This document shows positions 3,833-49,662 of a stretch of DNA of 56,599 bases, piece after piece. How positions within the stretch are numbered: the first letter of the stretch is position 1; each line of letters starts with the position of its first letter. Under the pieces are notes generated by a model. That model saw only the letters and a list, made by a program, of their open reading frames with translations. It was not told where the DNA came from and did not search any database. The DNA is taken from positions 1 to 56,599 of the forward strand of contig NZ_RHNW01000016.1 in NCBI RefSeq assembly GCF_003946045.1, written 5' to 3'. This DNA comes from Levilactobacillus mulengensis (lineage in GTDB: Bacteria; Bacillota; Bacilli; Lactobacillales; Lactobacillaceae). A program made the position numbers and the translations under genes.

Positions 3833-4017
3833 CGTTCCCGGCGGTGGGCTCAAGGTGCCCTGCTGTGGGGCCGGTTCCAGATTGAGAACCGGTCTTCCAC
3901 CTCGTCTTTGAGCCAAAACCCGGTCTCAAAGGACGTCCCGTGGTCTAAACTGAGAAAATCACTCAGTTAAGGCCACCGACACAGCTGGTCACCTTGGCCC
4001 ACCTCTGGTCACTGACA
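3833..4017 (+). repeat. Structured repeat, long form (copy A)
   Basis: This is a core copy running from CGTTCCCGG to CTCTGGTCACTGACA. Apical stem arms are AACTGAG (3948-3954) and CTCAGTT (3962-3968) with a 7-base loop. The basal stem pairs GGTGGGC-CAAGGTG-GCTGTG with CACAGC-CACCTTG-GCCCACC. Outside the core, TGGCAAAATTG (3804-3814) and CCATTTTACCA (4026-4036) form partly degenerate outer arms resembling the GGTGAAAATGG arms of other copies. It fills most of the rpoZ-coaBC gap. No coding potential was seen. Confidence 0.85.
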
Positions 4018-4188
4018 TCAACTATCCATTTTACCAGACCGCTGTGTTTGACACTGGATTTAACCCTTGATCATTCGGTTTCGTTATGACACCCGGCAAT
4101 CGGACCTGATGGCGCGTTAGGTTTCACTAAAGTAAACCATTAATCTCGGCTAACCGAGCACGTCTGCGCAAAATTTCTCTTGGCTGAT

Positions 4189-4225
4189 AAAAAAGGCCAG
4201 ATTACCCAACGGCAACCTGGTCTTT
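4189..4225 (-). terminator. Rho-independent terminator of the gmk-rpoZ transcript
   Basis: On the minus strand an imperfect stem AAAGACCAG / CTGGCCTTTTTT ends in six T residues, 16 bases after the rpoZ stop codon. This suggests that gmk-rpoZ is a separate transcript from coaBC-priA. Confidence 0.75.
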
Positions 4226-4240
4226 CCTGAACCGCCAAAG

Positions 4241-4456
4241 TTAGGCGTCCAGATCCTTTTCGTCCGGATCAATCATTAAGGCACCGGCAGCGATTTCTTC
4301 CAGTGCGCGACCAATCGTCTTGGGCGACTTGTAATCGGTCAAGAGTGGCTTAGCGCCGGCGTCCAACTCGTGGGCCCGCTTGCTAGCCAGCATAATCAAA
4401 GAGTAACGTGAATCAACTTGTGCTAATAAATCATCAACTGAGGGATAGAGTAACAT
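4241..4456 (-). CDS. rpoZ: RNA polymerase omega subunit
   Basis: The 71-residue protein is the small omega subunit that helps assembly and stability of RNA polymerase through the beta' subunit. The family signature runs from RYSLIMLASKRAHEL (about residues 17-31) to TIGRALEEIAAG (about 47-58). The length fits Firmicute omega. It starts two bases after the gmk stop codon, so the two are co-transcribed and perhaps translationally coupled. Confidence 0.95.
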   Translation of the reverse strand: MLLYPSVDDLLAQVDSRYSLIMLASKRAHELDAGAKPLLTDYKSPKTIGRALEEIAAGALMIDPDEKDLDA

Positions 4457-4458
4457 TT

Positions 4459-5073
4459 TTATTCGTCTCCAATCATTTGTTCGTAATCCGGCATAACCCG
4501 GGTTACCCGTAAACGTTCACTGCGGATGATCATTTGAATCCGGTCGACGGCTTGGCTGACTTCGTCGTTTACCACGGCGTAATCATAGTTGCGCATCATC
4601 CGAATTTCACCCACGGCCTTCTTGATTCGTTTGTTAATGACGTCCATAGCGTCAGTGCCCCGACCAATCAGGCGGTGCTTTAATTCCATCAAATCAGGTG
4701 GCGTTAGGAAGACGAAGACAGCGTCGGGACAATTGGCGCGAACCTGCATGGCCCCGTTGACTTCGATTTCCAAGAAGACGTCCTTACCCTCATCAAGGGT
4801 CTCATTAACATATTTTAACGGGGTACCGTAGTAGTTGTCAACATACTTGGCGTACTCCAGCATCTCACCGTTACGGATGTTTTCCTCAAATTCTTCCTTT
4901 GAGACGAAGTAATAGTCAACCCCGTTCACTTCGCCTTCCCGCGGTTTCCGGGTGGTCATTGAAATGGAGTACGAAAAATCGGTCGCTCCCGTTTCAAATA
5001 GCGCCTTACGAACCGTTCCCTTACCAACTCCGGAAGGACCCGAGAGCACAATGAGCATTCCACGTTTAGCCAT
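4459..5073 (-). CDS. gmk: Guanylate kinase
   Basis: Gmk phosphorylates GMP or dGMP to the diphosphate with ATP. The 204-residue protein shows the P-loop GPSGVGKGTVRKAL at about residues 11-24 and the GMP-binding segment TTRKPREGEVNGVDYYF near 41-57. It continues with YYGTPL and the guanylate-kinase box FLEIEVNGAMQV. The ATG is preceded by AAGGG. It heads the gmk-rpoZ transcript. Its leader contains a strong hairpin (see 5112-5151), and the gene is divergent from an SOS-type gene. Confidence 0.97.
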   Translation of the reverse strand: MAKRGMLIVLSGPSGVGKGTVRKALFETGATDFSYSISMTTRKPREGEVNGVDYYFVSKEEFEENIRNGEMLEYAKYVDNYYGTPLKYVNETLDEGKDVFLEIEVNGAMQVRANCPDAVFVFLTPPDLMELKHRLIGRGTDAMDVINKRIKKAVGEIRMMRNYDYAVVNDEVSQAVDRIQMIIRSERLRVTRVMPDYEQMIGDE

Positions 5074-5111
5074 CGTTTAAAAATCCCTTCATCATAAAAA
5101 ATTTAATTATG

Positions 5112-5151
5112 GGTTGGTTCCCCTAGTCAATGACTCAGTGGGAAACCAACC
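5112..5151 (-). promoter_or_regulatory. Hairpin in the gmk leader
   Basis: Arms GGTTGGTTCCCC (5112-5123) and GGGAAACCAACC (5140-5151) pair at 11 of 12 positions. The loop contains AGTC-AAT-GACT, which can pair as well. On the gmk strand the hairpin is followed by CATAATTAAATTTTTT, so it could work as an attenuator or leader terminator. Candidate gmk promoters (TTGCTG-16-TATCCT, overlapping TTGTTG-16-TAGTAT) lie upstream of it, around 5190-5230. Confidence 0.45.
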
Positions 5152-48040: not shown

Positions 48041-48079
48041 TTGCATCCTTATCCTGCCTCCCATCCATGTTTCCTGAAG

Positions 48080-48577
48080 CTAGGCGTTAGGCGTTACTTT
48101 GTTCATTAAGGCTTCCACTCGCTTACGGGCTGGTCCACAGAATTCGTAAACCGCTTCGTAATCATCTACTAGGGAAACAATCGCACTTTCCCGGTATTTT
48201 GGCATAGCGAGCGTTGCGCCCCACATATGCTTCAAGATAATATCCTTTTCCATGGGGCTCAGGTCCGTTAATTTTTCAGCGTTCCGCAAAGCAACTCGTG
48301 GATGGATAAACGCGTGCGACCCTAAATTGAACTTCGTCGTGCGCCAATCATAATAAAATAAATCATGCAACAAACCACCCCGTGCGGTGGCCCGGGTGTT
48401 TAAGCCAAGTTTCTTTGCAATCAGGTAACTGTTATACGACACTGAAATACAGTGGGACAAGCGGTCAGAGTGATGGTGTTGCGTGTAATTCGCCAGGCGT
48501 TGAACCGGCTCCTTTGCCAACAGATCAGAAACTAAAGCCAGGTACTCGGGGTCATCACGCCAAGTCAGTTTGGTCAT
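48080..48577 (-). CDS. HD-domain phosphohydrolase
   Basis: A 165-residue soluble protein with the HD metal-binding pattern: HHHSDRLSHCISVSYNSYLI (first His), ARGGLLHDLFYYDW (HD pair) and a final Asp in SLVDDYEAVY. Such proteins hydrolyse phosphate esters or nucleotides; the substrate is not evident. ATG 48577 follows AAGGAAG. The genes for HxlR and this enzyme are adjacent on the same strand. Confidence 0.88.
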   Translation of the reverse strand: MTKLTWRDDPEYLALVSDLLAKEPVQRLANYTQHHHSDRLSHCISVSYNSYLIAKKLGLNTRATARGGLLHDLFYYDWRTTKFNLGSHAFIHPRVALRNAEKLTDLSPMEKDIILKHMWGATLAMPKYRESAIVSLVDDYEAVYEFCGPARKRVEALMNKVTPNA

Positions 48578-48719
48578 AGAATGCTTCCTTTTCATTTAAA
48601 ATTATGATTTTCAGTCTTCTTAACCCTATATCTTACTTACTTTTCACCAAATTGCAACCATCTTGCTTGGATTTCGCCCGGGTTAAGCCTTTCTTTACCT
48701 TTATCCCTTTGTGTCAGGC

Positions 48720-48950
48720 CTGTAAAATTGGGTGTCGCATGGGCGTTCCCGGCGGCAGATTCAAGACGCCCAGCTGTGGGGAACGGTTCCAGCCGAAGAG
48801 CGGGTTTCCGCCTCGCCTTTGAGCCTGAGGTACGGTCTCAAAGGGCGTCCCGTGCTCTAAACTGAGAGATGCACTCAGTTAAGACCACCGACACAGCTGC
48901 CTACCTTGGCCCACCTCTGGTCACTCACACTGACCACACCATTTTTACAG
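48720..48950 (+). repeat. Structured repeat, long form (copy F)
   Basis: The core runs from 48744 to 48929. The apical stem is AACTGAG (48860-48866) / CTCAGTT (48874-48880), as in copy A but with a different loop. Outer arms CTGTAAAATTGG (48720-48731) and CCATTTTTACAG (48939-48950) pair at 11 of 12 positions and are unlike those of copies B and C. The CGTTCCCGG end faces the HD hydrolase start. Confidence 0.85.
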
Positions 48951-49159
48951 TTCTGACGATGGTGTTGGTTTTTGCCAATTAATTTAGCCGCGTTTTCCCG
49001 CAATACTTAACCGCCTCAAAACAATGCTTTGCCATACCATTCAATACACATTAATCAGATGCAAGAATAGTGTACAGAAAAAACAGCCACAACATGGCCG
49101 AGGAAACTGGACCAGTCGTAAAAACGTCAAGATTCGGAAACGTGATCTGGCACGTCAAT

Positions 49160-49320
49160 CCGTTGTACAAGGCCGGTTGTAGAAGTGACCAGAAGCAAGC
49201 CAAGGTGACCAGCTGCGTCGGTAACCTTGGCTGGAGTTCTGTTCCAGCCTAGTTCTATGAGGCAACCTTTGCGACCGCCTTGTGGTTCAAAGTTGAGGTG
49301 GAACCCCACTCACAGCAAGG
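49160..49320 (-). repeat. Structured repeat, degenerate long copy (copy G)
   Basis: An inverted and eroded copy: AGTGACCAGAAGCAAGCCAAG, quoted in part as GTGACCAGAAGC, then AGCTGCGTCGGTAACC and TTCAAAGTTGAGGTGGAA. The apical stem is still intact: GGCTGGA (49229-49235) / TCCAGCC (49243-49249). The far end beyond 49320 is not recognisable. The sequence between copy F and this copy (48951-49159) shows no gene. Confidence 0.7.
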
Positions 49321-49390
49321 CGAACAGACACCTGATAATGTATATAGAGAGGCCCGCCACCATGCCCGCCAACAATCAGGGATTGAACGC

Positions 49391-49662
49391 GTGTCAGCCG
49401 CAGGGCTGGTGAAAACTGGACCAGCAAGATCAGTGTCAGTGACCAGAGGCGGATCAAAGTGACCGGCTGTGTCGGTGGCCTTGGCTGGGGTCCTTTCTCA
49501 GCCTAGCCCACGGGACAACCTTTGAGACCGCTCCTCAGGCTCAAAGTTGAGGTGGAAGCCCGCCTCCCAGGCTGGAACCGACCCCATAGCCGGGCACTTT
49601 GAATCCGCCGTCGGAAACGAACCATAACGCGTACCAGGCCCAGTTTTCACCAGCCCGAAGGC
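49391..49662 (-). repeat. Structured repeat, complete long form with both outer arms (copy H)
   Basis: The most complete copy, 272 bp. Outer arms are GTGTCAGCCGCAGGGCTGG and CACCAGCCCGAAGGC with GAAAACTGG / CCAGTTTTC. Inside lie basal arms CGGATCAAAGTG and CACTTTGAATCCG, the CTCAAAG / CTTTGAG hairpin and the apical stem GGCTGGG (49483-49489) / CTCAGCC (49497-49503) with one G-U pair. The right end is 21 bases behind the stop codon of the methyltransferase gene. Confidence 0.88.

Follow-up and report, generated by a model that had tools for sequence, protein, structure and literature searches.

A dispersed repeat family in Levilactobacillus mulengensis with a branched, strand-biased fold and a putative relative in Streptococcus

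Introduction

What kind of sequence recurs along a contig of Levilactobacillus mulengensis with a short hairpin that changes on both of its arms at once? The stretch concerned (NZ_RHNW01000016.1 of assembly GCF_003946045.1, positions 1 to 56,599 of the forward strand; hereafter the window, 56,599 nucleotides in all) was the subject of a preliminary description, which listed eight copies of a repeat family it did not recognise and proposed that selection acts on their folding, in RNA or single-stranded DNA. We find that the hairpin belongs to an element of ~180 to 300 bases, with a core of ~180 nucleotides that contains a multi-helix junction. Our preferred reading, to which we give slightly better than even chances, is that the copies form one family folding on a specific strand, whose model also matches the streptococcal RNA family RF02616, and that they are non-autonomous mobile elements predicted to spread via a folded single strand, probably RNA. 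This reading builds on features read directly from the genomes (a fold conserved across genera, a strand preference, the copy number, the outward arrangement of neighbours, empty sites and core differences between species).

Covariation and fold of the core

The consensus structure, drawn from 35 copies of the L. mulengensis genome on what we call strand B, consists of a long stem (P1/P2) and three hairpins (P3, P4 and P5) at the junction, with a GGG/CCC helix surrounding P4 and P5. The same 35 copies gave a covariance model, R1. The fold was then judged on 50 copies from congeners and other genera, drawn from the upper part of 91 matches and aligned by sequence without reference to structure. 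Given no prior structure, RNAalifold recovered P2, P3, P4 and P5 from this alignment and predicted 53 pairs, 49 of which show changes on both sides that keep the pair; 94.1% of all cells in these pairs are paired. Cells with changes on both sides number 571; shuffling the partners gives 155.6 ± 12.0 (none of the 500 shuffles reached the real value, although such shuffles leave relatedness among the copies in place), and sliding the structure along the alignment gives 59–119. These counts support the proposal that selection acts on the fold of the element.

The hairpin noticed earlier is P3, which turns out to be just one piece of this larger structure. Sequence reading and the covariance model agree on a copy at all eight places cited for it, and direct reading finds the seven-pair stem intact in all eight. 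The reported coupled switch between flanking GTG/CAC and ATG/CAT was also confirmed (A-T in 22 and G-C in 13 of 35 copies). The stem said to contain one G-U pair does so on strand B, but on the plus strand that pair is A-C.

Strand preference

Since an A-C on strand B is a G-U on the opposite strand, the two can be weighed against each other as evidence for the strand that folds. Copies from other species show 124 G-U against 39 A-C on strand B (by-pair sign test, p=0.02), and those of L. mulengensis 43 against 15 (p=0.19). Strand B also gives the stabler fold in 105 of 128 L. mulengensis copies and 87 of 91 others with RNA parameters; DNA parameters raise these numbers to 108 and 89. The test is partly dependent, as it is the model that assigns the strand. 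The asymmetry of the pairs therefore suggests that a single strand folds, and that this strand seems to be B. Taken with an expressed relative (see below), the bias favours RNA over single-stranded DNA, and the folded strand is likely to be RNA.

A putative relative in Streptococcus

At Rfam cut-offs the window contains no match to the element, and one copy searched up to E=10 gave none, in line with the earlier statement that the family was not recognised. A distant relative does exist, however, in RF02616 (SSRC8_2; Streptococcus sRNA 8, SSRC8), so that a match to a known Rfam family, which the preliminary description had named as a finding that would speak against a new element, applies in part. 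A second covariance model, R2, built without Streptococcus from the 91 matches in congeners and other genera, matches three Streptococcus-type genomes, in which RF02616 matches on the same strand below its cut-off. With filters off, R2 finds 17 of 19 RF02616 loci at 30.7–63.5 bits (E<=5e-7), in the right place and on the right strand; the test leaves out L207, which is cut by its contig, and the 17 loci are not all independent because L212, L214 and L215 are nearly identical. The two families share their helix order, a GAGACC...GGCTC hairpin and the strand, the Rfam strand of RF02616 being taken as that of the transcript. Like the lactobacillar element, RF02616 has many copies per genome: at E<=0.001 it occurs in 45 of 58 genomes of its genus, with up to at least 26 copies in one, and exceeds its cut-off in 9 of the 58. 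On these model matches, the lactobacillar elements appear to be distant relatives of RF02616.

SSRC8 was described in S. pyogenes as a small RNA (sRNA), detected by Northern blot and circular rapid amplification of cDNA ends (RACE), with a Rho-independent terminator at the end of its RACE sequence (PMC3675131). Homologues are listed there for other streptococci, and section 17 of that source does not mention dispersal. A literature search, mainly of open-access papers, gave, among the matches listed, no paper on this lactobacillar repeat or on SSRC8 as a dispersed sequence. Of nine full-length Streptococcus loci open to the test, eight, first picked by eye, have a copy of a locus-specific terminator-like palindrome on either side; the two copies are direct at four loci and inverted at four, with scores of 28–63 that each exceed those of all mismatched pairs. 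This distinguishes them from the outward-facing pairs of lactobacilli (described below), where neither a terminator-palindrome bracket nor a duplicated terminator was found. Three Streptococcus-type copies (L197:4385-4541, L197:7679-7818 and L196:4312-4469) lie within an operon, which from the translations of its genes we take to be the purine operon, and are on its coding strand.

Abundance and phylogenetic range

The L. mulengensis genome (3.11 Mb, 36 contigs) holds at least 150 copies, as all 150 candidates scored, out of 1666, matched R1; a DNA search with one query copy gave at least 48 matches with 40 of 306 candidates scored. Extrapolated from ten loci in the window, the number would be roughly 550 per genome. 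To our knowledge few bacterial repeats are this abundant, and the best-known are short palindromes. Scans of many genomes give lower bounds, as few candidates were scored per genome and filters were stricter. On this footing R1 matches, within the genus, 33 of 35 genomes (the host's own included) and, within the host's family, 50 of 251 genomes in 10 of 40 genera; it matches none of 23 genomes from other families of the order. R2 matches 95 of 301 sampled genomes and 14 of the 40 genera of the family; across the class it matches 5 of 299 genomes, namely L. mulengensis itself, three of one genus, by inference Streptococcus, and one weakly at 29 bits. No copy was found in the congeners G022 (with R1) and G031 (with R1 and R2), nor in plasmid and phage collections searched by distant blastn with three query copies. 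Stretches from other genomes were in part chosen for their hits (including 13 of 20 in one set), which biases densities; the other seven and further sets are orthologues of L. mulengensis stretches.

Several elements lie at or near contig ends (window 1-84; G000:C1:363; G010:C14:450; G010:C5:450; G320:C31:132; G024:C58:103), and may therefore break short-read assemblies of these genomes.

Arms, pairs and orientation

The 134 L. mulengensis copies of more than 120 bases comprise 85 of type I, 35 of type II and 14 of other kinds. Terminal inverted repeats GGGTTAAACCAGTGTC... and ...GTTTAACCC flank the arm-bearing copies (41 and 29 sites). Common to the sites with arm motifs are GGGTTAAACCAGTGTCAGCCGCAGGG... 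and ...CCCGGAGGCG.TGACAACGAC...GTTTAACCC; outside these, conservation is slight.

Close neighbours face outward or lie in tandem and never face inward. L. mulengensis neighbours less than 600 bp apart are arranged -+ in 22 of 39 cases, ++ in 9, -- in 8 and +- in none; those of other species are outward in 34 of 36 (-+ 34, ++ 1, -- 1, +- 0). Pooled with orthologous sites and taken within 700 bp, the counts are -+ 84, ++ 14, -- 10 and +- 0, that is 84 outward, 24 tandem and 0 inward. Strand B has its 3' end toward the nearest gene at 113 of 128 L. mulengensis loci (single copies, 52 of 60), with five edge and four in-frame loci set aside, and at 58 of 64 loci in other species (single copies, 12 of 15), with two edge loci set aside. 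Four of 137 L. mulengensis loci fall in a called frame, so the element is mostly intergenic; gene calls are simple open reading frames, and frames of fewer than 200 codons overlapping an element were dropped.

At several tandem loci, read by eye, the unique upstream flank recurs before the second copy. In the pairs L122:3220 + 3404 and L124:11205 + 11375, a truncated first copy is followed by the repeated flank and a full second copy, and L120:12375 + 12539 and L123:5037 + 5219 are likewise built. The repeated flank is a possible trace of the insertion mechanism.

Empty sites, core exchange and loss

Ahead of coaBC lies a gap that, in L. mulengensis, G012 and G021, is about 500 bp long and contains an element; in the congeners G003, G002, G028, G015 and G023 the same gap is empty and measures 74–112 bp. 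G020 lacks the pairs found in the window at 35354/35955 and 21970/22306. Over 137 kb compared with G012, containing 47 L. mulengensis elements, 35 elements are shared, 10 absent and 2 unmapped, while 9 occur only in G012; over 137 kb compared with G021 the counts are 35, 11 and 1, with 5 only in G021. A further 2 (G012) and 3 (G021) elements are unmapped on the relatives' side; elements of 140 bases or fewer are left out of these orthologue counts, and 'absent' denotes the lack of a same-strand R1 match. Recent movement is slow, because species 92–94% alike share most sites.

Cores differ between species at sites that are otherwise the same. At C12:72.2 kb, G012 has a type I core and L. mulengensis and G021 a type II core within the same arms and flanks, and at the window site 43687 the core is type I in G012, type II in G021 and lost in L. 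mulengensis. Smaller differences occur at the 28995 locus, where the P4 hairpin of G012 is a different variant from that of L. mulengensis and G021, and at the 49438 locus, where one P3 pair is A-U in G012, G.U in L. mulengensis and G-C in G021. At 12 of 35 loci shared with G012 and 19 of 35 shared with G021, the L. mulengensis copy resembles its best paralogue among the sampled copies more closely than it does its orthologue. From these comparisons we infer conversion through the arms, together with slow insertion and loss.

Nature of the element

A mobile structured element fits the empty sites, the species-specific consensus, the decay and the clustering. Under the preferred reading, units would insert as outward-facing pairs, and single copies would be pairs after loss of one partner. 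Intrinsic terminators are a candidate insertion target because terminator-like palindromes bracket most of the full-length Streptococcus units tested. Gene conversion via the shared outer arms would keep copies within a genome similar. A mobilising enzyme would recognise the folded strand, which is transcribed in the S. pyogenes relative at least.

A number of observations weigh against this interpretation. No transposition was observed, the species that are 92–94% alike holding most sites in common, and decayed copies would be counted among the absent ones. No target duplication was found in lactobacilli, where similarity between the outer flanks of outward pairs exceeds the 95% level in 1 of 23 L. 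mulengensis and 4 of 34 other pairs. The Y1 transposase PF01797 has no match in the element-rich genomes G012, G002 and G017 (drafts of 40–100 contigs) and G023 (~5 contigs). Neither an autonomous version nor a mobilising gene was found among the four scanned of 13 genes between the wider outward pairs; with three of the four giving ordinary Pfam matches and one none, an autonomous transposon between outward pairs was set aside as a candidate. The RNA identity of the folded strand is not proven, because the G-U share is low (in other species G-U makes up about 5% of pairs, in L. mulengensis 2%) and UUCG loops are improperly closed; the C-UUCG-G loops lack three closing pairs and were rejected as proof of RNA. 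As to the streptococcal relationship, the RF02616 cut-off of 72 bits is reached by no lactobacillar element tested, and six other stretches give no match up to E=1. R2 with default filters finds 3 of 20 RF02616 loci, and L200, the best-scoring locus of RF02616, reaches 12.7 bits and L206 10 bits with R2. Of the ten Streptococcus loci fetched, L217 is not bracketed by palindromes (19, against up to 23 for mismatched pairs) and L207, cut by its contig, falls outside the test.

The most serious competitor, possible though on balance unlikely, is that single-stranded DNA folds, and that the family is an element like a REPIN or a miniature inverted-repeat transposable element (MITE), with its ends cut by a transposase and transcription incidental. 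REPINs are numerous intergenic copies that form inverted doublets with a less conserved spacer, and singlets are probable remnants (PMC3116915); the outward pairs resemble these doublets, paired inverted copies serving as a unit in both cases (34/36 and 22/39 of close neighbours, none inward). The low G-U share, the mostly intergenic location, the equal strand preference with DNA parameters and the outer arms GGGTTAAAC/GTTTAACCC, which look like terminal inverted repeats, also agree with DNA folding. Against this, PF01797 is not co-distributed with the element in the four element-rich genomes searched, for which reason the REP/RAYT system was rejected, and the relative SSRC8 is a Northern-positive sRNA. 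The REPIN core is also a palindrome of 20–40 bp (PMC3733652), in contrast to the 180-nucleotide multi-branched fold found here. With MITEs, the element shares its small size, the lack of an open frame, terminal inverted repeats and intergenic sites, but it differs in that neither a target duplication nor a source transposon was seen (four of 13 candidate genes scanned) and in having a structure conserved across genera by covariation. Compared by description, BOX, RUP and SPRITE are likewise folded dispersed repeats enriched between convergent genes, with about half of the pneumococcal insertions present in all strains and BOX expressed in places, but they have been reported in S. pneumoniae and S. 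mitis, and only on rare occasions in other streptococci (PMC3049150). REPINs are thus the closest known system in behaviour (PMC3116915), and RF02616 is the closest by model match.

A bolder form of the RNA hypothesis, which we regard as quite improbable, sees in the family a bacterial counterpart of the short interspersed nuclear elements (SINEs): structured small-RNA genes of Lactobacillales whose strand-B RNA would be copied back into the genome at hairpins, giving hundreds of copies that make up some five per cent of the genome. The insertion hairpins would be intrinsic terminators in Streptococcus and existing copies of the element in lactobacilli, and core exchange through shared arms would hold the copies together as an interbreeding population.

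Slightly less probable again is that the copies are host-useful RNA structures acting in cis (bidirectional insulators, terminators or stabilisers of mRNA ends) and selected at each locus. In other species, in stretches chosen for hits, elements occupy 18 of the 35 gaps between convergent genes, 19 of the 124 between co-directional genes and 3 of the 38 between divergent ones, and one orthologous site shows a compensatory change, both in favour of such a role; the corresponding numbers in L. mulengensis are 23 of 58, 48 of 250 and 22 of 59. The orientation of the element is, however, independent of transcription (29 the same and 32 opposite in co-directional gaps), L. mulengensis copies face gene starts nearly as often as stops (61 and 67; 20 and 44 in other species), and several sites are empty in other congeners. 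A cis-regulatory leader of the downstream gene was rejected because element orientation is independent of gene direction.

That each copy is a gene for a trans-acting sRNA seems very improbable: SSRC8 is described as an sRNA (PMC3675131), but at least 150 diverging copies in one genome and the deletion of cores do not fit dedicated regulators. Least credible is the homogenisation of stem arms by template switching without selection on folding, which the preliminary description had itself named as a way to explain the covariation away: in the copies inspected the outer arms do differ between loci and pair within each locus, but arm copying would erase conserved mismatches within covarying stems, and a T.T mismatch in P3 is kept in 34 of 35 L. 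mulengensis and 43 of 50 other copies, while the excess of G-U over A-C, about three to one, is a strand bias that arm copying does not give.

The family offers a 180-nucleotide junction fold held by covariation across genera while copies appear, swap cores and decay, and a single frame for a repeat of lactic acid bacteria and a streptococcal RNA filed until now as one sRNA. Its many natural variants per genome are a resource for structure work, and it raises the question of what enzyme could mobilise such a folded, RNA-like element in a bacterium.

Elements of the window

Ten distinct scoring loci lie in the window, along with two remnants that have lost the core and one copy truncated at the start of the contig. 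Missing from the earlier list were both type II copies, both remnants and the truncated copy. Core coordinates are covariance-model matches, and the strand given is that of folded strand B (AGTGACCAGAGG...CCGGGAACG). The best core match reaches E = 1.4e-56 with R1, whose training set included seven of the eight cited window copies; the two type II copies, from outside that set, score E = 3e-13 and 2e-11. Allowing up to two mismatches, CAYCGACACAGC occurs 16 times against 7.8 expected, a number matched in 1 of 100 shuffles.

The truncated copy, of which the 3' portion of a type II element is left, lies at 1..84 on the plus strand (R2 25 bits, model positions 101-180; 3' arm at 75-84). A type I core at 3833..4013 (minus, R1 208.7 bits) sits between coaBC and a short upstream gene, presumably rpoZ. 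The first outward pair joins a type I core at 21970..22150 (minus, R1 210.5 bits), whose gap content is absent in G020, to a type II core with arms at 22306..22484 (plus), assigned by type cluster and scoring 46.3 bits with R1 and 90.9 bits with R2. A remnant at 25238..25307 (plus), identified by reading the arms, retains both of them without a core, and a full element stands here in G012 and G021. The type I core at 28995..29178 (minus, R1 193.2 bits) has a right partner in G012 and none in L. mulengensis and G021. The second outward pair consists of type I cores at 35354..35540 (minus, R1 182 bits) and 35955..36137 (plus, R1 201.8 bits). After the yfhO gene follows the other type II core, at 39082..39257 (minus; R1 53 bits, R2 95.8 bits, again placed by type cluster), and the second remnant, arms without a core, spans 43687..43794 (plus), the site whose core differs among the three species. 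The last cluster has a type I core as its left partner at 48744..48925 (minus, R1 170.5 bits), then a degenerate core at 49184..49340 (plus, R1 60.6 bits) that has mostly lost P5 and is absent from G012 and G021, and a type I core at 49438..49619 (plus, R1 199 bits), the locus with the P3 pair that varies between species.

The sole Rfam match at cut-off in the window is an L21 ribosomal protein leader (RF00559) at 21113-21193 on the minus strand, with 63 bits. Beyond the window, in G116, a T-box leader (L154:2060-2248; 82.9 bits, cut-off 93) starts about 110 bp past an element.

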